Shown here: positions 4,477-48,539 of the stretch, piece after piece | Position numbering within the stretch: the stretch's first letter is position 1 | How the letters are laid out: each line of letters begins with the position of its first letter | DNA from: Actinacidiphila glaucinigra | GTDB lineage: Bacteria; Actinomycetota; Actinomycetes; Streptomycetales; Streptomycetaceae | Assembly (NCBI RefSeq): GCF_900188405.1 | Contig: NZ_FZOF01000008.1 | Coordinates: 248,001-312,000 of the forward strand | Reading direction: 5' to 3' | Length of the DNA stretch: 64,000 nt | Position numbers and translations under genes: made by a program | The notes under the pieces: generated by a model | Databases searched by the model: none | What the model saw: only the letters and a program-made list of their open reading frames with translations | What the model was told of the DNA's origin: nothing

Positions 4477-7107
4477 GTGACCGATCGCCAGCCGTTCCCC
4501 GACGCCACCGCCGGCACCCCCGGCCCGGGCGGGAACGGGAGGGCCCGCGCCGCACGTCCCTCTCGCGGCACCGGATCCGAGGGCTCGGCTCCCCCGCCGC
4601 CCCCCGCTGCCCCGCCGAACCCGCCGGCCTCGGCCACCCGGCCGCAGAAGGCGGCCGGTGCGAAACCCGCCCGCGGTGGGAAGACCGGAGGTGCGCAACC
4701 CGCGGCCGAGGGCGCCGGTCCGGCCGCCGCGGGCCGCCCCCGACCGGACGCGTCCGGATCCTCGGAGGCCGTCGCGCGCGGCTACGACCCCGCCGGGTCC
4801 GAACGCCCGCCCGCCTCGGGCACCGCCCCGCGCACCGCGCCTCCCGCGGGCGTCGGCCACCAGGCTCCGCCGCCCGCGCCCGAGGTGGCGCCGACCGCGG
4901 GCCCGGTGACCGGCGACGTTCCGCCGGCCCCGGAACTCGACCCGGGCGAGCGCCGGCGGCTGCTGGACGGCGCCCACCACGACCCCCACGGGCTGCTCGG
5001 CGTCCGCCGTGTGGCGGACGGCCTGGCCTTCCGGACCCTGCGGCCGTACGCGCGCAGCGTGGCCGTCGTCACCGGCGACGGGACGCGGACGGTGCTGAAC
5101 CACGAGGGCGACGGGCTGTTCAGCGGGGTGCTCCCGCTGACGGAGGTCCCCGAGTACCGGCTGGCCGTCGCCTACGACGGGGACGAGCGCGAGGTCCACG
5201 ACCCGTACCGCTTCCTGCCCGCGCTCGGCGAGTTCGACCTGCACCTCGTCCACGAGGGGCGGCACGAGCAGCTGTGGCGGGCGCTGGGCGCCGAGCCGAT
5301 GACCCACGAGGGCGTCACCGGCACCCGGTTCACCGTGTGGGCGCCCAACGCACGCGGGGTGCGGGTGGTCGGCGACTTCACCTACTGGGACGGCACCGCC
5401 TTCCCGATGCGCTCGCTGGGCTCCTCCGGCGTGTGGGAGCTGTTCCTGCCCGAGGTCGGCGAGGGGCAGCGCTACAAGTTCGAGATCTGCGGCGCGGACG
5501 GCGGACGGCGGCTCAAGGCCGACCCGATGGCCCGCCGCACCGAGGAGCCGCCGGCCACCGCCTCCGTCGTCACCGCGGCCCACCACGAGTGGCAGGACGC
5601 CGACTGGATGGCCTCGCGCGGCAGCCTGCCGGTGCACGAGGCGCCCTTCTCGGTGTACGAGGTGCACCTCGCCTCCTGGCGGCCGGGGCTGTCCTACCGC
5701 GAACTGGCCGAGCAGCTCCCGGCCTACGTGCGCGATCTGGGCTTCACGCACGTGGAGCTGATGCCGGTCGCCGAGCACCCCTTCGGCGGCTCGTGGGGCT
5801 ACCAGGTCACCTCGTACTACGCCCCGACCGCCCGGATGGGCACCCCGGACGACTTCAGGTACCTGGTGGACGCGCTGCACCGGGCGGGCATCGGCGTGAT
5901 CATGGACTGGGTGCCGGCCCACTTCCCCAAGGACGACTGGGCGCTGGCGGACTTCGACGGCACCAACCTCTACGAGCACCCCTGGCGCGGGGAGCATCCC
6001 GACTGGGGGACGCTGGAGTTCGACTTCGGCCGCACCGAGGTCCGCAACTTCCTGGTGGCCAACGCGGTCTACTGGTGCGAGGAGTTCCACATCGACGGGC
6101 TGCGGGTGGACGCGGTCGCCTCGATGCTCTACCTCGACTACTCGCGCGAGGACGGCCAGTGGGCGCCGAACGCGTACGGCGGCCGCGAGGACCTGGACGC
6201 CGTCGCCTTCCTGCAGGAGATGAACGCGACCGTCTACCGGCGCTGCCCCGGTGTCGTCACCATCGCGGAGGAGTCCACCGCCTGGGACGGCGTCACGCGC
6301 CCCACCCACCACGTCGGCCCGGCCGGTTTCGGCGGGCTCGGCTTCGGCCTGAAGTGGAACATGGGCTGGATGCACGACTCGCTGGAGTACGTCCAGCACG
6401 AGCCGGTGCACCGCAAGTACCACCACAACGAGATGACCTTCTCGATGGTGTACGCCTACAGCGAGAACTACGTCCTGCCGATCTCGCACGACGAGGTCGT
6501 CCACGGCAAGGGCGCGCTGGTGGCCAAGATGCCCGGCGACTGGTGGCAGCAGCGCGCCACGCACCGCGCCTACCTCGGCTTCATGTGGGCCCACCCGGGC
6601 AAGCAACTGCTTTTCATGGGGCAGGAGTTCGCCCAGGGCGCCGAGTGGTCCCACGACCACGGACCGGACTGGTGGCTGCTCGACGAGACCTACTCCGCGG
6701 CAGGCGACCACCGCGGCGTCCGGGACCTCGTCCGGGACCTCAACACCCTGTACCGGGCCACGCCGCCGCTGTGGCAGCGCGACACCACCCCGGACGGCTT
6801 CGCCTGGCTCGACGGCGGCGCCGCCGAGGACAACGTCTTCTCCTTCGTGCGCCTGGACGCCGGGGGGAACCCGCTGATCGCGGTCAGCAACTTCTCGCCG
6901 GTCGTCCGGCAGGGCTACCGGATCGGCGTGCCGGACGGGGTGGAGGCGCTGCGGGAGGTGCTGAACACCGACGCCGCCGTGTACGGCGGGAGCGACGTCA
7001 CCAACGCCGAGCCGCTGAAGTCCGAGCCGGTCGCCTGGAACGGCCGGCGCCAGAGCGTGCAGTTCACGCTGCCCCCGCTGGCCACGGTCTGGCTGCGCCC
7101 CGCCTGA
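4477..7107 (+). CDS. glgB: 1,4-alpha-glucan branching enzyme GlgB with long disordered N-terminus
   Basis: GH13_9 enzyme that introduces alpha-1,6 branches into the glucan extended by GlgE. The GTG at 4477 is supported by AGGAGG 10 bases upstream. Residues 1 to about 150 are a Pro/Ala/Gly/Arg-rich segment without recognisable domain. The recognisable branching-enzyme N-terminal domain begins near residue 158 ([14 protein letters not shown]), followed by the CBM48 module near 270-370. The barrel then carries Asp545 (RVDAVAS), Glu598 (TIAEES) and Asp672 (ISHDEV). Total 876 aa, longer than a typical 730-aa GlgB because of the extension. Last gene of the GlgE block; a GC hairpin follows. Confidence 0.94.
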
Positions 7108-7299: not shown

Positions 7300-8196
7300 A
7301 TGGTGAGCGAACGGGAGTTGCTGCCGGACCTGTTCTGGGGCGCCGACCGGGCGTCGCTGCGGGGCCAGTTGCAGACCGTACGGCTGTCGCGCCGGCAGCT
7401 CGGCCTGCTCACGGTGGCCTCCGTCTTCAGCTCGTTCGACGTGGCCGCCGGCCGTCTGCACTGGGCCTCGTGGCTCGCGGCCGCCCTGTTCGCGTTCGCC
7501 GCGTGGACGACCTGGGTGATCCACCGCCACAACCCGCAGGCCCTCTGGTACGAGGGCCGGGCGCTGGCCGAGTCCATGAAGACGCTCGCCTGGAAGTACT
7601 CGGTGCGGGCCGACCCCTTCACGCCACCCGGCGACGAACGCGACCCGGACGCCCTCTACCGCCTGCAGCTCGGCGACGTCCTGCACACCTTCCGCCGCAG
7701 CAGGGCACTGCCCCGGCATGTCGACTCGGGCATCACCCCGGCGATGCGGCGGCTGCGGGACGCGCCGCTGCGTGTGCGGCACGACGTGTACCTGCGGGAG
7801 CGCATCCGGGTGCAGCACGAGTGGTACACGGTCAAGGCGGCCCGCTGCGAGGTGAACGGCCGCCGGGCGGGGCGCCTGGCGATGACGTTCCCGCTGCTCG
7901 GCATCCTGTTCCTGGTCCTGCGGGCGGGCGGCTGGTCCCCCTTCGACACCCTGGGCTTCGTGTCGGCCATCACGGCCTCGGTGGCCGCCTGGGCGCAGCT
8001 GCGCCAGTACAGCCCGCTGGCCGCGGCGTACCGGGTGGCGGCGGACGAGCTGGAGCTGATCCGGGTGCAGCTGGCGTCGCTGGACCTTGACGACCCGCAT
8101 GCCGAGCACCTGTGGTCCCAGCTGACCCGCGACGCCGAGGACGCGGTGTCCCGGGAGCACACCACCTGGCAGGCGAGGCGCGAGATGCGGGTGTGA
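7300..8196 (+). CDS. DUF4231/SLATT-like membrane protein
   Basis: 298-aa membrane protein. Two hydrophobic hairpins flank a soluble helical region: TM segments near residues 33-50 and 55-75, then near 191-207 and 212-230. After TM2 comes a W-x2-EGRA-x2-ES-x4-AWKY pattern, typical of the DUF4231/SLATT group of two-TM proteins, and a second copy-like segment (YRVAADELELI) follows TM4. Known context for the wider SLATT group: predicted membrane effectors associated with nucleotide or NAD-derived signals. That role here is inference only. The gene sits 39 bases upstream of a hydrolase on the same strand, and the pair converges on fxsT. GTG at 7303 is an alternative start. Family assignment is by pattern recall. 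Confidence 0.65.
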   Translation: MVSERELLPDLFWGADRASLRGQLQTVRLSRRQLGLLTVASVFSSFDVAAGRLHWASWLAAALFAFAAWTTWVIHRHNPQALWYEGRALAESMKTLAWKYSVRADPFTPPGDERDPDALYRLQLGDVLHTFRRSRALPRHVDSGITPAMRRLRDAPLRVRHDVYLRERIRVQHEWYTVKAARCEVNGRRAGRLAMTFPLLGILFLVLRAGGWSPFDTLGFVSAITASVAAWAQLRQYSPLAAAYRVAADELELIRVQLASLDLDDPHAEHLWSQLTRDAEDAVSREHTTWQARREMRV

Positions 8197-8235: not shown

Positions 8236-9126
8236 GTGCGTGTGGTGCGGGCGAGGGACGGGCGGGAACTGGCGGTGGAGACCCGGGGCGATCCGCGGGG
8301 CAGACCCGTGTTCCTGCTGCACGGCACACCCGGCAGCCGGCTGGGCCCGGTGCCGCGCAGTGCGGTGCTCTACCGGCTGGGGGTGCGGCTGATCTCCTTC
8401 GACCGGCCCGGCTACGGCGGTTCCGAGCGGCTGCCCGGCCGGCGGGTCGCGGACGCCGCCGCCGACGTGGCGGCGATCGCGGACGCCATGGGTCTGGACG
8501 CGTTCGCGGTCGTCGGCCGCTCGGGCGGCGGTCCGCATTCGCTGGCGTGCGCCGCGCTGCTGCCGGACCGGGTGCGGCGGGTGGCGGTGCTGGTGGGGCT
8601 CGCGCCGCGGGACGCGCGGGGGCTCGCCTGGCACGCGGGGATGACCCGGTCCAACGTCCGCGACCACACCACCGCCGACGCGGCGCACCGGCGGCTCGCC
8701 GCCCGGCTGGAACTGCGCTCCCGCACCATCCGCGACGATCCGGCCAGTCTGCTCGCCCTGCTCCGCGAGGAGATGCCGCTGCCGGACCAGCTGGTGATCG
8801 CGGACGCGGGCCTGCGCACGATGCTGCTGCGCACCTACGCGGAGGCGCTGCGCACCTCGGCCGACGGCTGGATCGACGACACGATGGCGTTCAACCGGAG
8901 CTGGGGGTTCGGCCTGGACCGCATCGCGGCGCCGGTGCTGCTGTGGCACGGGGAGGACGACGTGTTCTCACCCGTGGCTCACTCCCGCTGGCTGGCCGAG
9001 CACATCCCCGGCGCGACCATGGTGGTGCAGCCGGGGGCCGCGCACTTCGCGGCCCTGTCGGTGCTCCCCCGGGTGCTGGCCTGGGCGGCCGCCGGGGACG
9101 GCCGGGAACGGTCCGTGCCCGCCTGA
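8236..9126 (+). CDS. Alpha/beta hydrolase
   Basis: 296-aa cytoplasmic alpha/beta-hydrolase-fold protein. The oxyanion-hole motif HGTPGS lies near residue 31, the nucleophile elbow GRSGGG places Ser96, an acidic residue follows in WHGEDD, and the catalytic His270 is in AAHFAA. No lid or membrane segment is visible and the substrate cannot be told. GTG at 8236 follows a purine-rich stretch (GAGAGGGGG). It lies downstream of the DUF4231 gene on the same strand. Its stop is 8 bases from the end of the convergent fxsT with no hairpin between, so the two 3' ends are tightly packed. Confidence 0.8.
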   Translation: MRVVRARDGRELAVETRGDPRGRPVFLLHGTPGSRLGPVPRSAVLYRLGVRLISFDRPGYGGSERLPGRRVADAAADVAAIADAMGLDAFAVVGRSGGGPHSLACAALLPDRVRRVAVLVGLAPRDARGLAWHAGMTRSNVRDHTTADAAHRRLAARLELRSRTIRDDPASLLALLREEMPLPDQLVIADAGLRTMLLRTYAEALRTSADGWIDDTMAFNRSWGFGLDRIAAPVLLWHGEDDVFSPVAHSRWLAEHIPGATMVVQPGAAHFAALSVLPRVLAWAAAGDGRERSVPA

Positions 9127-9133
9127 CCGCCGC

Positions 9134-12100
9134 TCACACCGGCTGCGGCTCCAGGTCCCGGTTGACCCGGTACCACTCGCGGGCGGCCCGGCTGAGGGGG
9201 TGCTCCTCACCGAGCAGCCGTACGCACTCCGGGAGCACCTTGCCGCGGATCGCCTGCGCCCGTGTGTGCCGCCCGGACTGCCGCAGGGCGTAGGCCAGGT
9301 TGATCTCGCAGGCCAGGGCGTCCGGGTGCTCGGGGCCGTAGCGCTCGGTGAGGCCGCGCAGGGCGGCCTCCAGGAGGGTCACGGCCCGCTCGTTGTCGCC
9401 GAGTTCGCCCGTCGCGTTGCCCAGGTTGATCATGCAGTTCAGGGTGTACGGGTGGCGGGGGCCGACCGCCCGCTCCAGTTTGGCCAGGGTGTCGGTGCCG
9501 ACCTCCACGGCCTCCCGCGCGTTGCCACTGCCGCGCAGGTAGATGGCGAGGTTGTTGCGGCAGGCCAGGGTGAACGGGTGCTCGTCGCCCAGCAGTTGCC
9601 GGTAGGAGGCGAGGGCGTCCAGGGCCAGGTCGCGCGCCTTCTCCTTGTCCCCGGCCGCCGAGTAGTCGGCTGCGAGGTTGAGGGCGCAGGCGAGGGCGTC
9701 GGGCACCTCGGGACCGTACCGCTCCAGGTAGCGGTCGTAGGTCACCTGGGTGAGCCGCATCGCCTCGGCGGCGCGGCCCGCCTTGCGCAGCGAGACCGCG
9801 AGGCTCTTGGCGTTGCGGAGCGTCTCGGGCACGTCGGGGTTGAGGACGTCCTGGAAGACGTCCATCACCTCTTCGAGCATCGCGACGGATCCGGTGTAGT
9901 CGCCGACCTCCCGCAGGTCGCGGGCGAGATTGGCCTTGGTGGACAGGGTGTACGGATGGCGGTCGCCGAGCATCGGGGTCCGCCGGTCCACGGTCTCCTG
10001 GTCCAGCCGGCGGGCGAGTTCGGAGTCCCCGGTGAGGCGGTAGTCGATGGCGAGGTTGTTGGCCGCGACGAGCGAGCGCGGGTGCTGCTCGCCGAAGATG
10101 TCCTTGAATCCGGCGTAGATCTCCTCGTCGCGTTCCCTGGCCTCCTGGTAGAGGCCGAGTGCCCGCAGGTCCGCGGCGAGGCTGCCGCCGGTGATCAGCG
10201 TGTGCGGGTGGCCGGCGGGCAGCAGGGCGGTCTGCCGGGTCAGGGTGTCCTCGTCGTACTGCCGGGCCTCCTGGTACTTGCCCTGCGAGCGCAGCACGTT
10301 GGCGAGTTCGAACTGCAGGTTGAGGGTCTGCTGGTCGTCCTGGCCGAGGGACTGCTGCCAGTTGCGGAGCAGTTGCTCGGCCAGCAGCCGGGCCTGCTCC
10401 AGTTCACCGCTCTTCCACAGGTAGCGGACACGGTTGACCAGCAGCTGCCGCGGCTTCTCCTCGCGGCAGTCCTCGGCCTGGGAGGGGGCGAGGTGCGGCC
10501 AGATCAGCTCGAACCCGGGCCAGTTCGCCGGGTCGTTGATGGCGTCCTCCGGCGGCCGGGCCTCGGCGAGGATGCGGTGCACCTCGTGCATCGTCTCCTG
10601 CCGGTCGTCCTCCGACATCTCCGAGCGCACGGCCGCCTGCACCAGCCGGTGCACCTGGATGCTGCTGTCGGCCGGGTCGACCTTGGCCAGGGCGAAGCGG
10701 TTCAGCGCCTGGATGACCTTGCCGAGCATGTAGCGGTCCCGCAGTTCGCGGTCGTGGGGCAGCAGCGCCTGGATCATGGAGTCGCTCTCGATCAGGGTCA
10801 TCGAGATCGGCTCGGCCGCGAAGAACGCGCACAGCTCCAGCAGCCGGACGGCGGCCTTGGACTGGTTGCGCAGCCGGCTGATGGAGATGCTCCAGGTCGC
10901 GCCGACCTCCCGCGGATAGCCGGCGGCGGTGGTGACCGACAGGGCCTTGGTCGTCTGCTCCTTGAGCTGGTGCACATAGACGTCGACGGGGGTGGCGGTC
11001 TCGGCGAGCCACGCGGCGGCCACCTCGACGGCCAGCGGCAGGTCACCGACCGCCTCGGCGACCTGCGCGGCGTCCTCCCGGCTCATGCCGCCGACCCGGC
11101 GGCGCAGATGCTCCACGCTCTCCGAGCGGTTGAAGACCTCGATCTCCAGCGGCTCGGTCGGTCCCGTCGGCGGCTTGTTCCGGGCGGTGACCACGATGTG
11201 GCCGCGCCCACCGGGGAAGAAGCGGCGTACCCGCTCGGGGTCCTCGACGTTGTCGAAGACCAGCAGCCAGCGCGTGAAGCGGGTACCGGCGGCCAGTTCC
11301 TCCCGGGCCGCCTCGGCGGCCTCGGACACGCTGTCCCCGACGCGCAGCTCCAGCCGGCGGGCGAGCTCGGCGAGGGAGGGCGCGATCCGGTCCTCCTGCT
11401 CCGCCTCGATCCACCACACCAGGTCGTAGTCGGCCTTGAAGCGGTGCGCGTACTCCAGCGCCACCTGCGTCTTGCCGACGCCGCCGAGGCCGTGGAGGGT
11501 CTGCGGGAAGGGCTGGACGGAGGGGTTGCCGCCGCCCAGGCGGTCGCGCAGCCGGTCCAGGACGGTGGAGCGGCCGGTGAAGAAGGTGTTGCGGGGCCGC
11601 AGGTTAGACACCTTGGGGTCGCCGACGGGGTAGCGCGGACCGCCCGCCATGGCGGTCGGGTTGAGGTCCGCTTCGTCCCGGCCGAGGGCGCGCAGCAGTG
11701 TGGTGGCGGCAGCGGAGTGGTCGAGCCGCACCAGGCTGACCGGGCTGCGCTGGGCCAGCGGCGGGCCGGGGCGTACGTCGCCGACCCGGATCGGCATCAG
11801 CTGGTGCTGCTGGCCCGAGGGGTCGGTGCCCGCGCTCGACTCCCACACCCGCATGGCCCGCCGGGACCGCAGGTAGGCGGCGGACAGCACGACGAGGGTG
11901 CGGGAGGACGCCCCGGCCACTGCGGGCTGCTCCGCGGGGGCGGTGTGGGTCTCCACGTCCCAGGGGACGACCCGGAAGCCGGCCCGGGTCAGGATCCACT
12001 CGATCCAGTCCGCCCACATACGGTCCTCGGGCACGTACGCCAGCACCAGCCCGGACGGCGGTACGGGCCTGCGGCGGGTGAACTCCGCCGCCCAGCGCAG

Positions 12101-13051
12101 CCGTTCCGACTCCGGGATCGGGGGCAGCGAGGTCACCGAGCCGCCGGAGACCACGGAGGTGAGGCGTTCGCAGGCCGACAGCATCGAACTGGACAGGCCC
12201 GGGGCGTCCCCGAAGGTCGCCAGGATCTCCTCGTAGGCGTAGAAGGGGCGGTACGGGATCTCCACCGACCCCCAGTAAGAGACGAGTTCGTCGTCGTCCA
12301 TCCCGGCCGGCAGCCCCTCGAACCGGGAACGGGCCAGGGCCCGTCCGGCGTCCGCCTTCTCCTTCTCGCCGTCGTCGATGCGCATCGGCACGGGGAAGAT
12401 GCGGATGCCGCGGCCGTTGTAGCGCTCCTCGATGTCGCGGGCGACGGCGGAGGCGCCGTAGATGCTCTGGTCGCTGAGGGTGAAGCAGACCACGAGCTCG
12501 TCGGGCATGTGGACGGTGCAGATGTCGGCGATGTCGCTGAGGCCGGTGCGGCTGTCGATGAGGACGTAGTCGTAGTGGCGCCGCATGTCCGCGCGCATGG
12601 CGTCCAGGAACTGGCCGCCGCCGAAGCGGTCGTAGAAGACGTCCCAGTCGATGCCGGTGAGCGCGGTCGAGTAGTTGCGGTCCTGCCGGCCGGCGGACAG
12701 GTAGTCCAGGCTGCCGCCGTCGGGGAAGGCCCAGTTGAGGGATATGGCGTGCGGGCGGACCCGGGCGAACTGGCGGTGCCAGTCGGGCGGCCGCGGCACG
12801 TCCCGCAGCGCCTCCTCCCGGTACTCGGTGATCAGGTCGATCATGCCGGTGGTGGCCGCGAGCGCGGAGGAGTCGAGGAAGGGGTGGAAGAAGCGGAAGA
12901 GGCCCGGGGCCTCCAGGTCCCAGTCCACCGTCAGCACCCGGTGGCCGTTCGCGGCGAGGATCCAGGCGGTGTTCGCCAGGGCCATGGTCCGTCCGGTGCC
13001 GCCCTTGTACGAGTAGAACGTGATCACACGTCCGTTACGGCTCTCGGTCAT
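9134..13051 (-). CDS. fxsT: FxsT: ParA-like ATPase / TIR / NB-ARC / TPR protein of the FxSxx-COOH system
   Basis: 1305-aa multidomain protein. Residues 1-300 are a MinD/ParA-like P-loop ATPase with deviant Walker A KGGTGRT (Lys16) and a VLIDSRTG switch. Residues about 333-450 form a TIR-like domain (LVLAYVPEDRMWADW). From about 488 there is an NB-ARC/STAND NTPase (FTGRSTVLDRL) with Walker A GLGGVGKT (521-528) and Walker B-like LLVFDNVED. Residues about 880-1290 are tetratricopeptide repeats of the 42-residue type (HPxTLxxxxNLAxxLR). This architecture matches proteins named FxsT in FxSxx-COOH RiPP loci. The ATG at 13051 lies inside the end of fxsC (17-base overlap), so the two are coupled. The biochemical role of FxsT is not established. 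A STAND sensor coupled to TIR is reminiscent of immunity proteins (inference). Confidence 0.85.
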   Translation of the reverse strand: MTESRNGRVITFYSYKGGTGRTMALANTAWILAANGHRVLTVDWDLEAPGLFRFFHPFLDSSALAATTGMIDLITEYREEALRDVPRPPDWHRQFARVRPHAISLNWAFPDGGSLDYLSAGRQDRNYSTALTGIDWDVFYDRFGGGQFLDAMRADMRRHYDYVLIDSRTGLSDIADICTVHMPDELVVCFTLSDQSIYGASAVARDIEERYNGRGIRIFPVPMRIDDGEKEKADAGRALARSRFEGLPAGMDDDELVSYWGSVEIPYRPFYAYEEILATFGDAPGLSSSMLSACERLTSVVSGGSVTSLPPIPESERLRWAAEFTRRRPVPPSGLVLAYVPEDRMWADWIEWILTRAGFRVVPWDVETHTAPAEQPAVAGASSRTLVVLSAAYLRSRRAMRVWESSAGTDPSGQQHQLMPIRVGDVRPGPPLAQRSPVSLVRLDHSAAATTLLRALGRDEADLNPTAMAGGPRYPVGDPKVSNLRPRNTFFTGRSTVLDRLRDRLGGGNPSVQPFPQTLHGLGGVGKTQVALEYAHRFKADYDLVWWIEAEQEDRIAPSLAELARRLELRVGDSVSEAAEAAREELAAGTRFTRWLLVFDNVEDPERVRRFFPGGRGHIVVTARNKPPTGPTEPLEIEVFNRSESVEHLRRRVGGMSREDAAQVAEAVGDLPLAVEVAAAWLAETATPVDVYVHQLKEQTTKALSVTTAAGYPREVGATWSISISRLRNQSKAAVRLLELCAFFAAEPISMTLIESDSMIQALLPHDRELRDRYMLGKVIQALNRFALAKVDPADSSIQVHRLVQAAVRSEMSEDDRQETMHEVHRILAEARPPEDAINDPANWPGFELIWPHLAPSQAEDCREEKPRQLLVNRVRYLWKSGELEQARLLAEQLLRNWQQSLGQDDQQTLNLQFELANVLRSQGKYQEARQYDEDTLTRQTALLPAGHPHTLITGGSLAADLRALGLYQEARERDEEIYAGFKDIFGEQHPRSLVAANNLAIDYRLTGDSELARRLDQETVDRRTPMLGDRHPYTLSTKANLARDLREVGDYTGSVAMLEEVMDVFQDVLNPDVPETLRNAKSLAVSLRKAGRAAEAMRLTQVTYDRYLERYGPEVPDALACALNLAADYSAAGDKEKARDLALDALASYRQLLGDEHPFTLACRNNLAIYLRGSGNAREAVEVGTDTLAKLERAVGPRHPYTLNCMINLGNATGELGDNERAVTLLEAALRGLTERYGPEHPDALACEINLAYALRQSGRHTRAQAIRGKVLPECVRLLGEEHPLSRAAREWYRVNRDLEPQPV

Positions 13052-14378
13052 CCTGGCCCTCCGGCTTGTCGGGTTCAGTGGTGCCGCGGTCGTCGTGCAG
13101 GCCGTGCGGGGAGGAGCGGTCGGATCCGTACGTCCCGGCGGACGGACCCCGGAGCCTGGGGCGCGAGCTGTGCGGGCCCCGGGGCGGGAAGGCCGGGGCG
13201 TGGGCGGCGTAGTGCTTGGCCGCGCGTCCCACGGCCCTGGGCACGTCGTCGCTGAAGACCTCGAGGCTCGGGATGTTGTTGCGGACGAAGCGCCCGCCCG
13301 TGCCGTCCGTGCGGCTGGGGTCGAGGGCGTCGTCGGCGAGACGGCGCAGGTTCTCCTCGTGGCCGCCCGACTCCGGGTCGGCACGGTTCCACGGCACCAG
13401 GACGCTGACCCAGGGCCGGTGCTCACTGCCGAAGCGGCTGAGCATCTCCCGCCGTTCGGCCGACGCCAGTGCCCAGCGGTCGAGCAGCAGCAGCCCGGGG
13501 GCGGTGGGGGTGGGGTCCAGCAGGCGGTCCAGCTCCTCCTCGAACACCCCCACGCTGACTCGGTAGTCGAGGTTGCGCGCCAGGTCGGCGGCGTGGTCGG
13601 CCAGCGGCCGGCTGCTCTGCGGGCGGTACGGGTTCCAGTCGCGGGGCGAGGGCCCGTAACAGCTGGGGCTGCGGCCCGCGGGCAGTTCCTCGGTGTCGCA
13701 GCAGGCGAGTACCGTCACGCGCAGCGGCCGGCTGGCGCCGGGGGGCCCGAAGGCGCTGGGGACGTGGTGGTAGTCGAGGTGGCGCCCTTTGGCGATCTTC
13801 GTGTCCTCGACGACCTGCACGATGCGCTGCGCGAGGCGGTAGACGGCCCGCTCGTACTCGTGCTTGAGGTAGCTGAGCTTGATCAGCCCGTAGAAGCCCT
13901 CGGCGGCGTAGTCCTCGCCGAAGTCCGCGTGGTTGAACTGCAGTCCCTCGGCCGGGCCCGGCATGTCGTTCGCCGCGACCGGCACCCACAGCGCGGGCAC
14001 GATGCCGGATATCTGGCGGTCGTGCAGCGACCGGTGGTAGACGGCGCGCTGCGAGAAGGCGTACCACTCCTTGCCGCACTGCTGGCTGCGGAAGTAGCGG
14101 GGCGAATAGAGCGGGACGAACACCCGGCAGTGCGCGAGCGCTTCGGCGAGCGATTCGGGCCAGCCCTCGCCGACGTTCATCCCCCGGTCCATGAAGCCCG
14201 CCCTCACCCCGGCGGGCAGCGTCGTCATCTGCAGGATGTGCGCGCACAGGTCGTTGTAGAGCTTGGCGACCCACAGGTCGGGGTCGGGGTCCGAGGGGTC
14301 GTTCCTGGGGGTGTGCGCATAACTGAGGAAGAAATAGGGCTTGTCCGAGGCGTCTCCCTGCCCCACGGGTAATGCCAT
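13035..14378 (-). CDS. fxsC: FxsC: TIR-domain protein of the FxSxx-COOH system
   Basis: 447-aa protein with an N-terminal TIR domain of about 150 residues. The first strand is FFLSYAH (16-22), a GFMDRGMNVGEGW BB-loop region follows, then VFVPLYSPRYFRSQQC-GKEWYAF. In this last segment Glu104 (C-x-x-E-W) aligns with the catalytic Glu of NAD-cleaving TIRs. The remainder (about 220-400) is a second alpha/beta region (VTVLACCDTEE...), and the tail is Pro/Arg-rich. ATG 14378 is preceded by GGGGGAGA at good spacing. It is the first gene of the fxsC-fxsT pair; a possible -10 TACACT lies about 65 bases upstream. Matches the 'TIR-like protein FxsC' family by recall. NADase activity is inferred, not shown. 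Confidence 0.85.
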   Translation of the reverse strand: MALPVGQGDASDKPYFFLSYAHTPRNDPSDPDPDLWVAKLYNDLCAHILQMTTLPAGVRAGFMDRGMNVGEGWPESLAEALAHCRVFVPLYSPRYFRSQQCGKEWYAFSQRAVYHRSLHDRQISGIVPALWVPVAANDMPGPAEGLQFNHADFGEDYAAEGFYGLIKLSYLKHEYERAVYRLAQRIVQVVEDTKIAKGRHLDYHHVPSAFGPPGASRPLRVTVLACCDTEELPAGRSPSCYGPSPRDWNPYRPQSSRPLADHAADLARNLDYRVSVGVFEEELDRLLDPTPTAPGLLLLDRWALASAERREMLSRFGSEHRPWVSVLVPWNRADPESGGHEENLRRLADDALDPSRTDGTGGRFVRNNIPSLEVFSDDVPRAVGRAAKHYAAHAPAFPPRGPHSSRPRLRGPSAGTYGSDRSSPHGLHDDRGTTEPDKPEGQDDREP

Positions 14379-14446
14379 GCGCCATCTCCCCCGCCCGACC
14401 TACACGACCCCGCTCCACCCCTCGTGAGGGAATCTCAGTGTAGGAA

Positions 14447-14464
14447 CCGCCGATTCTCCGGCGG
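14447..14464 (-). terminator. Weak hairpin between aac(3)-like gene and fxsC
   Basis: CCGCCG (14447-14452) pairs with CGGCGG (14459-14464) around a 6-base loop, 36 bases past the stop of the acetyltransferase gene. It is a short stem. It suggests that fxsA-fxsB-aac and fxsC-fxsT may be separate transcripts with partial readthrough. Confidence 0.35.
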
Positions 14465-14499
14465 AATAGCGCATGACCATCATTTTTGCGCGGATCGGG

Positions 14500-15285
14500 T
14501 CAACGGCCGTTGTTCACCAGCCACTTGGCGATGGCATCCACGGCGTCGGCGATCGGCACCAGATGGCAGGACGCGTCACCGACCGGACCGTCCAGCACCG
14601 CGCACTCGCTCGCCACCACCGGGACCAGCCCGGGGAAGTGCCGGTCGTCGATGTCGGGCGCCTCGAAGCGCACCCACTTCTTGCCGCCGTCCTCCGTGCG
14701 CACCACGGCCTGGTACAGGCGGTCCGGCGGCGGGACGGCGCGGTAGTCGGCCAGGTGGTAGGCGGTGCAGACCCACAGGTCCACGCCGATCAGCAGGGCA
14801 CGGGCCCGCAGGTCGTAGAGCCGGGCGGTGGGCGAGTCCTCGCCGAGGTGGCTCTCCAGCGCGTGGGCCTCGGTGACGAAGCCGGCGGCCGGGCCGAAGG
14901 CGGTGAAGGAGGTGTGCGGATGCGCACTGCGCAGGGCGCCCGGGAGCAGCCGTACCTCCTCGGCGAGCCGCCCCACGCTGGGCGAGACGGGGGTGGTCAG
15001 CGGGTCGAAGGCGGGCATCGCCTCGCGGTAGGCGGCCAGTTCCGTCTCGTCCATGCCCTCCGTGCGCTGCCGGTGCACGCGGGAGGTGAGCGAGTTCTCC
15101 GGGGTCGCCGCGTACGCGACCAGGGTGCCGTGGTCGCCCAGTGCCGCCCGCAGGGCCGCGACCACGGTGCGCCCGCCGCCCTCGACCGGGCCGAGCGCCT
15201 TCAGCGAGCCCTGGACGAGCAGCACCTCCCCCGGCTCGATGCCCAGCGCGCGCAGGGCCCTGGTCAGGCTTTCCAGCGTGTGCAC
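14500..15285 (-). CDS. AAC(3)-family N-acetyltransferase within the Fxs locus
   Basis: 261-aa protein of the aminoglycoside 3-N-acetyltransferase (Antibiotic_NAT) fold. Visible motifs are GSLKALGPVEGG near residue 26, RSAHPHTSFTAFGP near 119, and GEDSPTARLYDL followed by LLIGV near 145-165. The GTG start at 15285 lies one base after the fxsB stop (TGA-g-GTG), so it is translated with fxsB. AAC(3)-like genes recur in FxSxx-COOH loci by recall. In this setting a role in acylating the peptide or a self-protection role is more plausible than aminoglycoside resistance, but neither is shown. Acetyl-CoA as donor follows from the family. Confidence 0.8.
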   Translation of the reverse strand: MHTLESLTRALRALGIEPGEVLLVQGSLKALGPVEGGGRTVVAALRAALGDHGTLVAYAATPENSLTSRVHRQRTEGMDETELAAYREAMPAFDPLTTPVSPSVGRLAEEVRLLPGALRSAHPHTSFTAFGPAAGFVTEAHALESHLGEDSPTARLYDLRARALLIGVDLWVCTAYHLADYRAVPPPDRLYQAVVRTEDGGKKWVRFEAPDIDDRHFPGLVPVVASECAVLDGPVGDASCHLVPIADAVDAIAKWLVNNGR

Positions 15286-15286
15286 C

Positions 15287-17644
15287 TCAGACCCCCTTCA
15301 GTTCGGAGAGCCAGGGGGCGACGGTGCGGGCCATCCCGTCCGCGAACCGTCTGCCGAGCGGGGTGAGCGATCCGCTGCCTGCCAGCCGGTCGACCGCCTC
15401 CGCCGTCTCGCGGGTCCAGCGGGCGAAGGGCGCCGCGGCCCCAGGGACGTCCCGGCGGGCCTGCGCGCGCCAGTACTCGGCGACGGCGACATGGGCGTAC
15501 GTCCCCTGCAGCAGCCCTTCCAGCGGGCGCGGATCGGGGCGCCACGGGGCGTGGAAGAGGCGGGTGTCCTGCGGGTCGTACAGGTCCGCCAGGTCCAGCA
15601 CGGCACCGAGCTTCACGTGCTGGAACTCGTGGGCGACCAGCAGGGCCAGGGTGTCCGGCGAGGCGGGCCGCGCGATGCCGACCGCGCCGAACGCCTGCCG
15701 GGCGGCCCCGCTGACGTCGCTGCCGTCGCCGGGCGGGACCAGCGGGGTGACGGTACCGAGCCCGGCGGCCAGGCCCGGCGCGTAGCGGGGCAGTTCACGG
15801 CCGAGGAAGTCCCAGGCGGCGACGAGGTCCTCGTGCCAGGCCTTCACCTCGGCCTCGTCCTGCCGGGGCACCGAAGGCCACTGGTGGGCGTCGCGGTAGC
15901 GGTCGGTGTCCTCCAGCGCCACGCTCCAGCCGGCCGGGCCGACCCGCCGTACGGGGTGCCATCGCGCGTCCCCCGGGCCGTGCACGTCGATCCGCACGGT
16001 GCCGCCCGCGGCGCTCACCGAGAAGCCGTCGGCGGTGGCGGCGACCTCGGCGTCCTCCCCGTCGGGGGCGCCGACCAGGACGCGGCCGAGCCCCGGCAGC
16101 CGGACCGCGCCGTCGTGCACGGGCACGCGGACGGTCGCCTCGTACCGGCCCGCGGCCCGCACCACGGCGGCGGCCGCGAACTCGGCGAGCCCCGCGACGT
16201 CCGCCCCGCCGTCGCCGCCCGTCTCCAGGCAGTGCCGGGCCCACGTCCGTGCGTAGGGGTGGGCGAGCACCTCGTCCAGGGCCTGCGGCGCGGCCTCGTC
16301 GACCTCGGCGAGCACCCGCCAGACCGCGGCGGTCCTGCCGTCCCGGGGAGCACGCTCCCAGACGGCCGTGAGCAGCCCGCGGGTGATCACCAACTGCTCG
16401 GCGGCGAGCGCGGCGACCGTCGCGGCGTCGCCGTAGCCGGCGGCCAGCTGGTCGATCTGGTCCTCCGTCAGCGGGTGCTGGGGCTGCTGCCCCGACGCGG
16501 TGCTCACCGGGTTCTCCCGTTCCGTCTCCTCGGCCTCGCGGATGCCGAGGATCAACTCCATCAGGTCGCCGCAGTACGCGGACGGATTCGCGAATCCGCT
16601 CCCGGTGCGGTAGCGGTGCGCGTACAGTCCCCCGCCGCAGACGTCGACGACCGGGCAGCGGCGGCACTCGTCGCACAGCCCCTCCTTGCCCTGCCGCCGT
16701 GCCTCGATGCCGGGGTGGGCGGCGACCTCGTCCAGGGAGTGGGCGAACACGTCCATCCCGGTGGCCGGCGCGCCGTCGAAGGCGGTCTTGAGCGAGTCGG
16801 CCTGCTCGAAGCTGCCGTCGGTCTCGATGACGACGAGGTCGACCGGATCGGTGCCGATCGACTCGACGAGGCTGCTCCCGCCGCGCAGCATCCGGCGCAC
16901 GGAGTCGAAGACCCGCACGGGCACCGGGCGTCCCTCGGCGGTCCAGCGTTCGTGGACGGCCAGCAGCCACTGCGCGTAGGGCGCCCGGGCGCCGCCGGGA
17001 CGCGGGGGCGGGACGTCGTGGGTGGCGTGCGGCAGCAGGAAGTCGATGCGGGGCGGTTCGAGCGCCATCAGGGCCTCGTACACCGCCAGCGGGTCGTTCT
17101 CGACGTCGATCGTGCAGAGCAGCCCGCCGAAGAGATGGCGGTAGCGCGGCTCGCGGAGCAGCCCGATCGACGCCACCACGCGGTCGTAGCTGCCGCGCCC
17201 GTCGGCGAACCGCCGGTGCCGGTCGTTCTCGGCCCGGCCGCCGTCGAGAGAGACGCCGACCGAGATGCCGAACTCGTCGAAGACGTCGCAGAACCGCTCG
17301 TCCAGGAGAAGGGCGTTGGTCTGGATGCCGAGCTCGAGGGCGCACACGCCGTCGAGCGCCCCGCGTAACGCGGCTGCGGCCCGGCGCATGCGCGCCGGGC
17401 CCGCCAGCAGGGGTTCTCCCCCGTGGAACACCACCTGGACGCCCGGGAGCCGGTGCGCCGCGGCGTGCTCGGCGATCCGTGCCGCCACGCGTTCGACCAC
17501 CTCGTCCGGCGTGGCGCGGACCCGCGCCTTCCAGCTGGTGTCGGCGTGCTCGTAGACGTAGCAGTGATCGCACGCCAGATCGCACCGGCTGTGCAACTTC
17601 AGTACGAACTGCGACAACGCCCTGGTCGGCGCTGGTGTCTCCAT
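15287..17644 (-). CDS. fxsB: FxsB: radical SAM/SPASM peptide cyclophane synthase fused to HExxH domain
   Basis: 785-aa fusion. Residues 1 to about 400 are a radical SAM enzyme with the [4Fe-4S]-binding C21xxxC25xxC28 motif (CDLACDHC). A GGEP S-adenosylmethionine-binding motif follows, then a SPASM-type auxiliary cluster region (CDECRRCPVVDVCGGG...YCGD). A helical linker (TEDQIDQLAAGYGDAA) leads into a C-terminal domain carrying HEFQH (672-676), the HExxH putative peptide-modification module. FxsB-type enzymes install three-residue cyclophane crosslinks on aromatic-x-x motifs of FxsA-like precursors. ATG 17644 is chosen because METPAP begins just before the FVLKLHSRC core; the Shine-Dalgarno is weak. 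It follows fxsA by 32 bases containing a hairpin. Confidence 0.9.
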   Translation of the reverse strand: METPAPTRALSQFVLKLHSRCDLACDHCYVYEHADTSWKARVRATPDEVVERVAARIAEHAAAHRLPGVQVVFHGGEPLLAGPARMRRAAAALRGALDGVCALELGIQTNALLLDERFCDVFDEFGISVGVSLDGGRAENDRHRRFADGRGSYDRVVASIGLLREPRYRHLFGGLLCTIDVENDPLAVYEALMALEPPRIDFLLPHATHDVPPPRPGGARAPYAQWLLAVHERWTAEGRPVPVRVFDSVRRMLRGGSSLVESIGTDPVDLVVIETDGSFEQADSLKTAFDGAPATGMDVFAHSLDEVAAHPGIEARRQGKEGLCDECRRCPVVDVCGGGLYAHRYRTGSGFANPSAYCGDLMELILGIREAEETERENPVSTASGQQPQHPLTEDQIDQLAAGYGDAATVAALAAEQLVITRGLLTAVWERAPRDGRTAAVWRVLAEVDEAAPQALDEVLAHPYARTWARHCLETGGDGGADVAGLAEFAAAAVVRAAGRYEATVRVPVHDGAVRLPGLGRVLVGAPDGEDAEVAATADGFSVSAAGGTVRIDVHGPGDARWHPVRRVGPAGWSVALEDTDRYRDAHQWPSVPRQDEAEVKAWHEDLVAAWDFLGRELPRYAPGLAAGLGTVTPLVPPGDGSDVSGAARQAFGAVGIARPASPDTLALLVAHEFQHVKLGAVLDLADLYDPQDTRLFHAPWRPDPRPLEGLLQGTYAHVAVAEYWRAQARRDVPGAAAPFARWTRETAEAVDRLAGSGSLTPLGRRFADGMARTVAPWLSELKGV

Positions 17645-17650
17645 GGCTGC

Positions 17651-17677
17651 GGCCCGGACCCCCGAGTCGGTCGGGCC
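17651..17677 (-). promoter_or_regulatory. Intercistronic hairpin between fxsA and fxsB
   Basis: GGCCCGGACC (17651-17660) pairs with GGTCGGGCC (17669-17677) with one bulged G and an 8-base loop, directly abutting the fxsA stop codon. The only purine-rich ribosome-site candidate for fxsB (GGGGGT) lies in the loop and stem. Inference: it stabilises the fxsA message and restricts fxsB expression, giving excess precursor over enzyme. Confidence 0.5.
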
Positions 17678-17874
17678 TACTTGCTGCTGAACGACTGGAA
17701 GGCCGCGACCGGGACGTTCCCGGCGGAGGCTGCGGCGGGCATCACGCGGCTGAGGGTCGGCGAGGCGAGTGAGCTGCCGCGGGAGGCGAGCTCCGCCAGC
17801 GGGATCCTCCGCCGCGTCTGCGAGCGCCCGGCCAGGACATCGTTTTCGGCCATCACGGTGGGGGTGGCAGTCAT
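17677..17874 (-). CDS. fxsA: FxsA: FxSxx-COOH-type RiPP precursor peptide
   Basis: 65-aa precursor. ATG 17874 is chosen because GAGG lies 8 bases upstream; an in-frame GTG 18 bases further up is possible. The N-terminal part (1 to about 45) is a leader with RRRIPLAELASRG, and the C-terminus is VAAFQSFSSK. The terminal region has two aromatic-x-Ser units in tandem, F59-Q-S61 and F62-S-S64, followed by Lys65. FxsB-type enzymes crosslink such three-residue motifs. The family name implies Phe at position -5, whereas here the two Phe are at -7 and -4, so the tail is a variant. Location just upstream of fxsB on the same strand supports the call. Confidence 0.85.
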   Translation of the reverse strand: MTATPTVMAENDVLAGRSQTRRRIPLAELASRGSSLASPTLSRVMPAAASAGNVPVAAFQSFSSK

Positions 17875-30928: not shown

Positions 30929-31547
30929 GACTTTCCTCCTTCTCGGACGTACATCTCCGGCCGGAATCGTGGGGATTGCGGCGGGATGGGAGAAGTGCTA
31001 CGTCCTCGGGAAGGAGAGCGCCGTATCGACGGCCGTCACGCGGGTAAGAGCGGACGACACTGTCCGAAAATCGGCGATCACCCCCGAGCGACAACCACAC
31101 GGCCACGCTCTCGCGCAACCTGCTGGACAGGCCCCGCCGGACGGCGGAGACCCCCCTGTCCGTGGTCCGCGTCCGCTGCTGGCACAGCTTCGACGTCCCC
31201 GCCCGGTGGGGACCCGCGCTCGAATCGGACGGCTGGATGCCGACTTCTCGGCGACGGACCGGGCTTGGCCGATCGTGGTCCATTCGGCGCCGCTGCACAA
31301 GGGGCGTCGTTACTAGCGGGTAACGGTGCGATAACCCAGAAGATATGGTCTAGACCACAACGGTTACCCTGCGTAGTTGCGGTGAGGGTGTGAAAATCGC
31401 CCATCGGGTGATAGATGCGGACACATTCCTGTCACTCTCTTACCGGAAGTAACAGCGGCCGCGCTTCATCAAGATTTGGTAAAGCGCGGCCGGTCCCACA
31501 CCGGGCTCGAAATGGCTTTCGAGGCACGGCCACCTTACGTGATCAGG
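30929..31547. other. Long intergenic region upstream of the DUF6230 operon
   Basis: 619 bases between the DUF6230 start and the end of the thioredoxin-TPR gene. It holds a DasR-type palindrome (31346-31357) flanked by GGGTAAC (31318-31324) and GTTACCC (31363-31369). On the plus strand about 31090-31230 shows coding-like third-position GC in one frame, continuing to a TAG at 31314-31316 in another frame. No valid start is present, so it may be a decayed gene. No RNA gene is recognised. Confidence 0.5.
31346..31357. promoter_or_regulatory. DasR-type operator (dre-like palindrome)
   Basis: TGGTCTAGACCA, a perfect 12-bp palindrome. Over 16 bases (31344-31359) it matches the known DasR element ACTGGTCTAGACCACT at 13 positions. 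DasR is the GntR-type regulator of N-acetylglucosamine metabolism and development. The nearest downstream gene on the minus strand is the DUF6230 operon, about 420 bases away, which is far for direct control. Confidence 0.55.
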
Positions 31548-34698: not shown

Positions 34699-34706
34699 GA
34701 CGGCCG

Positions 34707-34749
34707 GCGGGGCCCGTCGGGAACACGCGCTGTTCCCGACGGGCCCCGC
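34707..34749 (-). terminator. Terminator of icmA
   Basis: Perfect 19-bp stem 34707-34725 with 34731-34749 around a CGCGC loop, immediately beyond the icmA stop and back-to-back with the terminator of the convergent gene. Confidence 0.8.
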
Positions 34750-34757
34750 GTCGTCCG

Positions 34758-36458
34758 TCAGAAGCGGGCGGGCTCGGTGTAGCTGCCCCACTCGTCGCGC
34801 AGGGCGCCGCAGATCTCGCCGAGCGTGGCCTCGGCCCGCACCGCGTCGAGCATCGGCCCGATCATGTTGCTGCCGTCCCGGGCGGCGGCCAGCATCGCGT
34901 CCAGCGCCTTGCGGACCGCCGCGTCGTCGCGCTCGCCCTTGCGGTCGGCGAGCACGCGGACCTGCTCGCGCTCGACCTCGTGGCTGACCCGCAGGATCTC
35001 CAGGTCGCCCGTCACCGAGCCGGTGTGGCAGTTGACGCCGACGACCCTCTTGTCGCCCTTCTCCAGGGCGCGCTGGTACTCGAAGGCGGCCTCGGCGATC
35101 TGGCCGGTGAAGTAGCCGTCCTCGATGCCGCGCAGGATTCCCGAGGTGATCGGGCCGACCGGGTGCCTTCCGTCCGGCACCGCGCGGGCGCCGAGCTCCT
35201 TGATCTTGTCGAAGATCTTCTCCGCGTCCGCCTCGATGCGGTCGGTCAGCGCCTCGACGTACCAGGAGCCGCCCAGCGGGTCGGCCACGTTGGCGACGCC
35301 GGTCTCCTCCATCAGCACCTGCTGCGTGCGCAGCGCGATCTCCGCCGCCTGGGCGCTGGGCAGCGCCAGCGTCTCGTCCAGGGCGTTGGTGTGCAGCGAG
35401 TTGGTGCCGCCGAGGACCGCGGCGAGGGCCTCCACGGCGGTGCGGACGACGTTGTTGTACGGCTGCTGGGCGGTGAGCGAGACGCCCGCGGTCTGGGTGT
35501 GGAAGCGCAGCCACTGCGCCTTGTCGGTCTTGGCGCCGTACACGTCGCGCATCCAGCGGGCCCAGATCCGGCGCGCTGCGCGGAACTTGGCGATCTCCTC
35601 GAAGAAGTCCAGGTGCGCGTCGAAGAAGAAGGACAGGCCCGGCGCGAAGGTGTCGACGTCCAGCCCGCGGGACAGGCCCAGTTCCACGTAGCCGAAGCCG
35701 TCGGCCAGGGTGTAGGCGAGCTCCTGCGCGGCCGTGGAGCCGGCCTCGCGGATGTGGTAGCCGGAGACCGACAGCGGCTTGTACGCGGGGATGCCCGCCG
35801 CGCAGTGCTCCATCAGGTCGCCGATCAGGCGCAGGTGCGGCTCGGGGGCGAACAGCCACTCCTTCTGCGCGATGTACTCCTTGAAGATGTCGGTCTGCAG
35901 GGTGCCGTTGAGCACACCGGGGTCGACACCCTGGCGCTCGGCGGCCACCAGGTACATGCAGAAGACCGGCACCGCGGGGCCGGAGATCGTCATGGAGGTC
36001 GTGACGTCGCCGAGCGGGATGTCCTTGAACAGGACCTCCATGTCGGCGGCGGAGTCGATGGCGACACCGCAGTGACCGACCTCACCCAGCGAGCGGGGGT
36101 CGTCGGAGTCGCGGCCCATGAGGGTGGGCATGTCGAAGGCGACGGACAGACCGCCGCCGCCCGCCTCAAGGATCATCTTGTAGCGCTCGTTGGTCTGCTC
36201 GGCGTTGCCGAAGCCCGCGAACTGGCGGATCGTCCACGTACGGCCCCGGTAACCGGTCGGGTGCAGTCCGCGCGTGAAGGGGTACTCGCCGGGCCAGCCG
36301 ATCCGCTCGAAGCCGGGCACCTCGGCGCCTGCGGGCGGCCCGTACGCCGGCTCCACCGGGTCCCCGGAGAGGGTGGTGAAGTCGGCCTCGCGCTTGCGCG
36401 CGGCGTCGTAGCGCGCCTGCCAGCGGCTGCGCCCCTCTTCGATGGCTGCAGCGTCCAT
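34758..36458 (-). CDS. icmA: Isobutyryl-CoA mutase large subunit IcmA
   Basis: 566-aa adenosylcobalamin-dependent mutase subunit interconverting isobutyryl-CoA and n-butyryl-CoA. It is the catalytic TIM-barrel part only; the cobalamin-binding small subunit IcmB would be encoded elsewhere. The diagnostic residues are visible: Phe80 (TIRQFAGFG) where methylmalonyl-CoA mutases have Tyr, and Gln198 (EYIAQKEW) where they have Arg. These exclude methylmalonyl-CoA as substrate. Length is exactly that of known IcmA. An 18-bp palindrome lies 72 bases upstream of the ATG. It links valine and fatty-acid catabolism to methylmalonyl-CoA and polyketide precursors. Confidence 0.93.
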
Positions 36459-48361: not shown

Positions 48362-48539
48362 CCGGAGACGACTCGCCCCGGTAGAGTGGCCTGGCGACCC
48401 CGGGGTGGGCTGGGGTACCTGCCCGCGCCTCGGCGTGGGATCGGACACAATTCTCCGCAAGGCTCCGCGGTAAACGGGGCCCCGGGGAATCTCACTCGGT
48501 TGGCGGGTGGGTACACCAGGAGACGGATGGGACCGCGGA

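Follow-up and report, generated by a model that had tools for sequence, protein, structure and literature searches.

What does a short modified peptide have to do with proteins built like signal sensors? This question is raised by an FxSxx-COOH locus of Actinacidiphila glaucinigra (Streptomycetaceae), which lies in a stretch of 64,000 nucleotides (nt) called here the window (contig NZ_FZOF01000008.1, positions 248,001 to 312,000). The locus specifies the precursor of a ribosomally synthesized and post-translationally modified peptide (RiPP), FxsA, a radical S-adenosylmethionine (SAM) enzyme, FxsB, an AAC(3)-like protein, a TIR protein, FxsC, and a large STAND protein, FxsT. An earlier note, made from the letters of the window, had recognized these five genes. 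The kind of locus and its Phe-Ser cyclophane chemistry are already known. What is added here is two partner genes, for an alpha/beta hydrolase and a SLATT membrane protein, which bring the number of genes to seven and had not previously been assigned to the system, a relation between the HExxH domain of FxsB and the residues preceding the ring in the precursor, and a contrast between the TIR domains of FxsC and FxsT in one glutamate. The locus may be a STAND/TIR circuit that is gated by the peptide and includes a predicted membrane effector; as a whole chain, in outline, this is the reading towards which we lean, tentatively and as somewhat less than an even prospect.

By its genes other than the precursor, the locus is a true member of the catalogued FxSxx-COOH/FxsABCT system. 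fxsA, fxsB, the AAC(3)-like gene, fxsC and fxsT follow one another in that order on a single strand, where the earlier note had placed them (Table 1). FxsB exceeds the cut-off of NCBIfam model TIGR04269 (562 bits, cut-off 370) and its alpha-ketoglutarate (aKG)-HExxH part that of TIGR04267 (170 bits, cut-off 40), so that the announced fusion of radical SAM/SPASM and HExxH domains is real; the likely separate role of the HExxH half had been missed. FxsC is above the cut-offs of NF040588 (236 bits, cut-off 130) and TIGR04276 (170, cut-off 55), and FxsT above those of FxSxx_TPR NF040586 (1065, cut-off 300) and of the KGGVGR ParA variant NF047398 (147, cut-off 90). The tight coupling that had been described holds between fxsA and fxsB (32 nt), between fxsB and the AAC(3)-like gene (1 nt) and for fxsC and fxsT, which overlap by 17 nt, but a gap of 121 nt separates the AAC(3)-like gene from fxsC. 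Proteins related to FxsB number 3617 among 7995 scored candidates, and of the 394 genomes sampled from the window's family, 283 have FxsB at E<=1e-60. The earlier note would have given way if fxsC and fxsT did not accompany fxsA and fxsB; among 119 non-redundant fused-FxsB loci with at least 6 kb downstream, fxsC is present in 109 and a ParA-bearing fxsT likewise in 109.

Two further genes, on the strand opposite to fxsT, suggest that the locus does not stop there, as its earlier description as complete implied: the boundaries then given end too early and leave both of them out. The hydrolase gene ends 7 nt from the fxsT stop. Across 86 aligned sequences, Asp242 and His270 of its product are conserved without exception and Ser96 in at least 95%; within the same genome, the closest paralogues are 45% and 36% identical. 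The neighbouring gene encodes a protein matching the Pfam models SLATT_3 (146 bits) and SLATT_1 (110 bits; cut-off 26.3 each), the sole match to either model in the window's genome. The linkage of the hydrolase is close: among 121 loci with a hydrolase hit, some genomes being represented twice, the gene is convergent with fxsT in 119 and within 1.5 kb of it in 118. Where an fxsT locus leaves room of 2.5 kb or more, the hydrolase lies within 3 kb in 56 of 73 cases; among the remaining 17, 8 are unfused-FxsB loci.

Co-occurrence gives the same picture. Across the 394 family genomes, FxsB (E<=1e-130) and the hydrolase (E<=1e-70) are both present in 168 and both absent in 207, with FxsB only in 8 and hydrolase only in 11; for FxsB and SLATT the corresponding counts are 159, 205, 17 and 13. 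Fused-type FxsB, hydrolase and SLATT occur all together in 154 of these genomes and are all missing from 195 (phi 0.79-0.90). Within the window's genus (35 genomes), FxsB and hydrolase are found together in 9 and are both missing from 26, never one without the other, and FxsB and SLATT together in 7, neither in 25, FxsB only in 2 and SLATT only in 1. The cut-offs of these partner tests (1e-130, 1e-70 and 1e-15) were chosen once the tables had been seen, the genome lists were copied out by hand, and Fisher and association values ignore shared ancestry. When positions were compared, the hydrolase lay on FxsB's contig in 109 of 114 genomes, within 12 kb in 93, and SLATT on FxsB's contig in 72 of 80, within 40 kb in 69.

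Could the two genes be chromosomal neighbours kept by inheritance, with no part in the peptide system? They are on the strand opposite to the fxs genes and not co-transcribed with them, the common ancestry of related genomes is uncorrected in all association numbers, and among the 80 genomes there are 3 in which more than 40 kb separate SLATT from FxsB and 8 in which the two are on different contigs. However, the genes are all gained and lost together inside one genus, and the hydrolase stays while the other flank varies (pdxH, citA and serC are near most Kitasatospora loci and not in the window). Moreover, SLATT changes sides: it stands beside the hydrolase in the window and in Kitasatospora but adjoins fxsA, on the opposite flank, in Sphaerisporangium and many Streptomyces that have lost HExxH (25 of 51 such loci, most of them with little upstream DNA). 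Simple inheritance appears rather unlikely to us, and the observations suggest that the hydrolase and SLATT genes belong with the Fxs locus.

The sensor and TIR proteins differ in what they conserve. In 123 copies of FxsC, Glu104 of the motif S-x-x-Y-x-x-S-x-x-C-G-x-E is present wherever the residue is aligned. It is a candidate for the catalytic position of a TIR NADase, an assignment that we base on TIR motif spacing and on a fold match to RUN1. The same column of the FxsT TIR, in 139 aligned copies, has Glu in 48% and Asp in 25% and is thus not a conserved glutamate. In these copies, the Lys of the FxsT NB-ARC P-loop (GxGGxGK[TS]) is invariant and followed by Thr (91%) or Ser (8%), whereas the ParA-type Walker Lys is replaced by Arg in all. 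With its matches to PF00931, TPR_10 and TPR_12, FxsT qualifies as a STAND protein of the NB-ARC/AP-ATPase type. Because the glutamate is conserved in the FxsC TIR, and because FxsT combines an intact P-loop with a variable TIR glutamate, a division of labour is suggested in which FxsT would sense and assemble and FxsC would catalyse. The predicted structure of FxsC (mean predicted local distance difference test score 83) has two domains (Table 1), and its best Foldseek matches are plant nucleotide-binding leucine-rich-repeat receptor (NLR) chains and the RUN1 TIR. In the open-access literature, subscription papers being mostly outside the search, no paper on the function of FxsC or FxsT was found.

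The precursor FxsA falls short of TIGR04268 (Table 1), and its end, FQSFSSK, runs two residues beyond the exact FxSxx-COOH terminus; an exact five-residue end F-x-[SA]-x-x is seen in 167 of 178 precursor rows. Nevertheless, fxsA is more than a chance open reading frame (ORF), since a motif-selected precursor occurs at the equivalent place for 158 of 166 non-redundant FxsB copies and since its last ten residues are identical at the same place in a genome of the same genus (G025). The latter identity also disfavours a sequencing error in the core. Tandem Phe-x-Ser units had been read in this end. FQS and FSS are literally there, but the next relatives, G029 and Streptomyces sp. GC420, end in FQSFSR and FQSFA: Phe at +3 is common to the three precursors and the second F-x-S is not, which makes a second ring doubtful. 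Upstream of fxsA, 149 stretches show modest enrichments of 6-7-mers, for example GTAAAGT (23 occurrences against 1.3 expected from a crude shuffle, relatedness uncorrected).

What the fused HExxH domain does can be approached from the residues before the ring. In the window, the motif is intact (HEFQH, residues 672-676), and FxsB scores 196 bits with the 'inactivated' model NF040587, under its cut-off of 225. Solved relatives are 9gm3 (ChlB radical SAM, 3.5e-74) and 22nu (HExxH part). The comparison used 178 non-redundant FxsB/precursor pairs. From 195 FxsB hits, 166 remained after deduplication and 157 once 8 without a core and the frameshifted L214 had been dropped; 21 rows were hand-picked from 60 further loci. 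Near-identical copies of named loci and loci with no clear core were omitted. So were four single loci: L250 and L264, whose cores lie about 2.7 kb away, L269, with Cys at -1 and an HExxH state that is unclear, and L234, which has lost HExxH and has SSF preceding the ring. Precursors were picked by F-x-[SA] or F-x-S near the C-terminus, so that the ring motif is in part conserved because of this selection; residues -3 to -1, counted from the ring Phe, played no part.

HExxH is intact, in fused form or in the next gene, in 127 rows and lost or absent in 51. The pair [VIL]-Ala at -3/-2 occurs in 107 of the former and in none of the latter. At -1, the active rows have A in 103, G in 16, R, P and K in 2 each, and L and S in 1 each, and the others T in 40, G and S in 3 each, I in 2, and V, A and N in 1 each. 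Ser or Thr at both -2 and -1 is found in 0 of 127 active and 26 of 51 lost or absent rows. A tree built from only the radical SAM part has 7 changes of HExxH state. In independent pairs (200 pairings), a residue other than A or G at -1 goes with HExxH loss in 4.1, the reverse in 0, and 2.9 are undifferentiated.

Since [VIL]-Ala tracks the HExxH state, the domain probably acts just upstream of the ring, and the pattern points to the place where a modification should be sought. As a single site of beta-hydroxylation, Ala at -1 is weakened by the 16 active rows with Gly and by those with R, K, P or L; the -3/-2 pair fits better. Two chemistries would be compatible with these residues, beta-hydroxylation of Ala and oxidative cleavage at Ala. 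We lean towards hydroxylation, which would account for the Ser and Thr encoded directly in lineages devoid of the enzyme. Cleavage, by analogy with PosC, would remove the leader.

How might the parts work together? FxsA would be cross-linked at Phe-x-Ser by the radical SAM half of FxsB, in keeping with the known chemistry of the family. The aKG-HExxH half would then oxidise the V-A-A upstream of the ring, by Ala beta-hydroxylation or by an Ala-dependent cleavage freeing the core, and the AAC(3)-like enzyme could add an optional acyl group. We infer that the TPR part of FxsT reads the finished peptide, that its NB-ARC ATPase assembles and gathers FxsC, and that the FxsC TIR, with its glutamate retained, makes or consumes a nucleotide signal. 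The SLATT protein may answer by opening a membrane pore, as SLATT proteins of other conflict systems are predicted to form pores in response to nucleotides (Kaur et al., 2020; PMC7159879). Trimming or inactivation of the peptide by the convergent hydrolase is the weakest step of the chain. In this way, FxsC and FxsT would be tied to a predicted membrane effector and a hydrolase in a concrete, testable order of events. Spelled out in full, the proposal is a chromosomally conserved actinobacterial circuit of seven genes, a RiPP-gated, plant-NLR-like pathway of cell death or signalling in which a cyclophane with Ala oxidised next to the ring, as intracellular ligand, switches FxsT, FxsC produces the nucleotide, SLATT forms the pore and the hydrolase ends the signal; in this full form we hold it to be improbable. 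Were it true, a bacterial NLR-like sensor would have a modified peptide as its ligand, for which no precedent was found in the searchable literature.

Several observations weigh against this circuit. Among the 63 named loci for which about 10 kb are available on both sides, only 30 have SLATT and 51 the hydrolase. The hydrolase, found in 179 of the 394 genomes against 283 for FxsB at E<=1e-60, is not a companion of FxsB at large. The Foldseek match of FxsC is weak, with 2 hits at E<=0.001 and whole-chain template modelling scores of 0.17-0.19, and a profile search of PDB sequences with FxsC gave no relative at E<=0.01. The link between HExxH and precursor is numerically strong but amounts to about 7 independent changes (p about 0.125) and is carried mainly by one large Streptomyces clade. 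Individual rows also depart from it: L232 has an intact HExxH yet Ser at -1, L039, close to the window, has lost HExxH yet kept Ala at -1, 7 active rows have R, K, P or L there, and Gly in 16 active rows excludes beta-hydroxylation of that residue in them.

Another possibility, which we hold to be a minority prospect, is that FxsA is an extracellular signal of developmental or quorum type in filamentous actinobacteria, received by FxsT and FxsC with no cell death involved. The wide distribution of FxsB in Streptomycetaceae would suit it, as would the stable linkage of the hydrolase across genera and the low entropy of the core from -3 to +4 in HExxH-active rows, a strong conservation unlike that of a fast-changing arms-race peptide. 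However, no transporter or secretion gene is seen among the five genes and two partners, and a TIR with conserved Glu together with SLATT is a set typical of conflict systems (Kaur et al., 2020; PMC7159879). The earlier note had suggested an immunity- or development-like circuit. The conserved SLATT gene and the Glu-bearing TIR of FxsC speak for this idea, but none of the PADLOC models matched the locus proteins as a named anti-phage defence system. The ParA part of FxsT matches the candidate system PDC-M28B (3.5e-23) and FxsB matches pVip (viperin), itself of the radical SAM family, weakly (9.4e-7); beyond these, PADLOC gave no matches, the SLATT protein included.

A toxic or antimicrobial FxsA, with neighbours providing self-protection by AAC(3)-like acetylation, hydrolysis and FxsT sensing, is less probable still and in our view quite improbable. 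Acyltransferases and hydrolases are common self-resistance families, and the Ser/Asp/His set of the hydrolase is conserved. Yet only 54 of the 119 non-redundant fused-FxsB loci have an adjacent AAC(3)-like gene, which for this reason looks accessory, the sensor and TIR genes being more constant, and no exporter is seen. The AAC(3)-like product stays under the cut-off of each of the five listed AAC(3) models (160 bits with the best, NF033082, whose cut-off is 270) and matches Pfam Antibiotic_NAT PF02522 (213 bits, cut-off 25); it is a member of that superfamily and no more. Lys was rejected as its target: where the gene is present, 4 of 80 loci have a Lys among the last ten residues of the precursor, and where it is absent, 1 of 74. 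Finally, a role of HExxH as a protease that cuts the leader (the assumption of Kaur et al., 2020), with VAA merely its cleavage site, would agree with the dependence of [VIL]-Ala on HExxH, with the hydrolysis by the related PflC of its peptide when the leader is missing (PMC12636437) and with the lack of any other protease noticed in the operon, but the domain falls in the aKG-HExxH model TIGR04267 and its radical SAM-fused relative is characterised as a beta-hydroxylase (PMC12636437), which leaves this role very unlikely.

Compared with what has been described, the locus is close to the NCBIfam FxSxx-COOH/FxsB system (TIGR04268, TIGR04269, NF040588/TIGR04276, NF040586), in which the same precursor type, FxsB, FxsC and FxSxx_TPR form one operon. 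The differences are the low-scoring, longer precursor and the SLATT and hydrolase genes, which are unnamed in those models as far as profile matches show. We take the entry IPR026335 to be the FxsB family. Its member MscB, a triceptide enzyme, joins Phe C4 to Ser C-beta in a three-residue cyclophane (PMC11002830), in agreement with the chemistry given in the earlier note; organism and precursor are different, and the passage on MscB mentions no HExxH partner. ChlBH is the same fusion of radical SAM and aKG-HExxH domains (FxsB matches its ChlB part, as mentioned above) and beta-hydroxylates Asp and His of a cyclophane peptide in an aKG-dependent reaction (Morishita et al., 2024, via PMC12636437), whereas the last 20 residues of the window's FxsA hold neither Asp nor His. 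Related oxidative HEXXH chemistry is known for PosC and PflC, stand-alone Pseudomonas enzymes acting on Gln and ARMD and unfused to radical SAM; oxidative cleavage by PosC needs Ala, Gly being partly accepted (PMC12636437).

Peptide-processing systems that stand alone in actinobacteria were described by Kaur et al., 2020 (PMC7159879). They combine a metallopeptidase-like protein, a radical SAM/SPASM enzyme for FxSxx peptides and an AP-ATPase carrying an inactive MinD/ParA-like domain, and their peptide was proposed to be a toxin or a signal. The earlier note had arrived at the same guess and had missed this description of the arrangement. Peptide, metallopeptidase-like domain, radical SAM/SPASM, TIR and AP-ATPase with TPRs and a ParA-like domain are common to the window. 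In contrast to the systems as outlined there, neither the five operon genes nor the two partners showed a VMAP/vWA core, the HExxH domain fits the aKG oxygenase model, and SLATT and hydrolase are added.

Table 1. Features of the Fxs locus, its partner genes and other elements of the window.
Feature	Position	Strand	Description
fxsA	17677..17874	-	65-residue precursor, core ...NVPVAAFQSFSSK, C-terminus VAAFQSFSSK; TIGR04268 22.9 bits, under cut-off 28
fxsB	15287..17644	-	785 residues; radical SAM/SPASM at about residues 10-369; aKG-HExxH at residues 608-771
AAC(3)-like gene	14500..15285	-	Antibiotic_NAT PF02522 acyltransferase
fxsC	13035..14378	-	N-terminal TIR with Glu104, then second alpha/beta (Rossmann-like) domain
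fxsT	9134..13051	-	ParA variant (KGGTGRT), TIR with unconserved Glu, NB-ARC with intact P-loop, TPRs
alpha/beta hydrolase gene	8236..9126	+	convergent with fxsT; Ser96/Asp242/His270 conserved; proposed sixth gene of the system
SLATT gene	7300..8196	+	SLATT_3 + SLATT_1 membrane protein (double-2TM); 39 nt before hydrolase gene; proposed effector
tRNA-Ser (act)	7020..7092	-	ARAGORN call
che1 small RNA	31072..31162	-	Rfam RF02935, 90 bits
tRNA-Arg (tct)	34702..34797	-	ARAGORN call
repeat-rich ORF	48507..52436	+	1309 residues; 33-nt (11-residue) DNA repeats

There are other Fxs elements besides those of the locus. On the same contig, about 150 kb away, the window's genome has a second FxsB (G000:C50:416069-420274), 46% identical and with no fused HExxH, which sits beside another FxSxx_TPR gene; no precursor was found there by the motif used. 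A separate HExxH domain protein is encoded at G000:C29:60453-60977 (45.8 bits, cut-off 40). Five loci of Kitasatospora type (L077, L079, L087, L090 and L062) carry two Fxs systems in a row, fxsC-fxsT-fxsB with a separate HExxH gene and then the fused type. Elsewhere in the window, besides the che1 and tRNA-Arg genes, the tRNA-Ser is perhaps a false call, given its unusual anticodon and its position just before the SLATT gene. The repeat-rich ORF has a strong purine bias and a weak DivIVA match, and its product presumably resembles the Streptomyces polar protein Scy.

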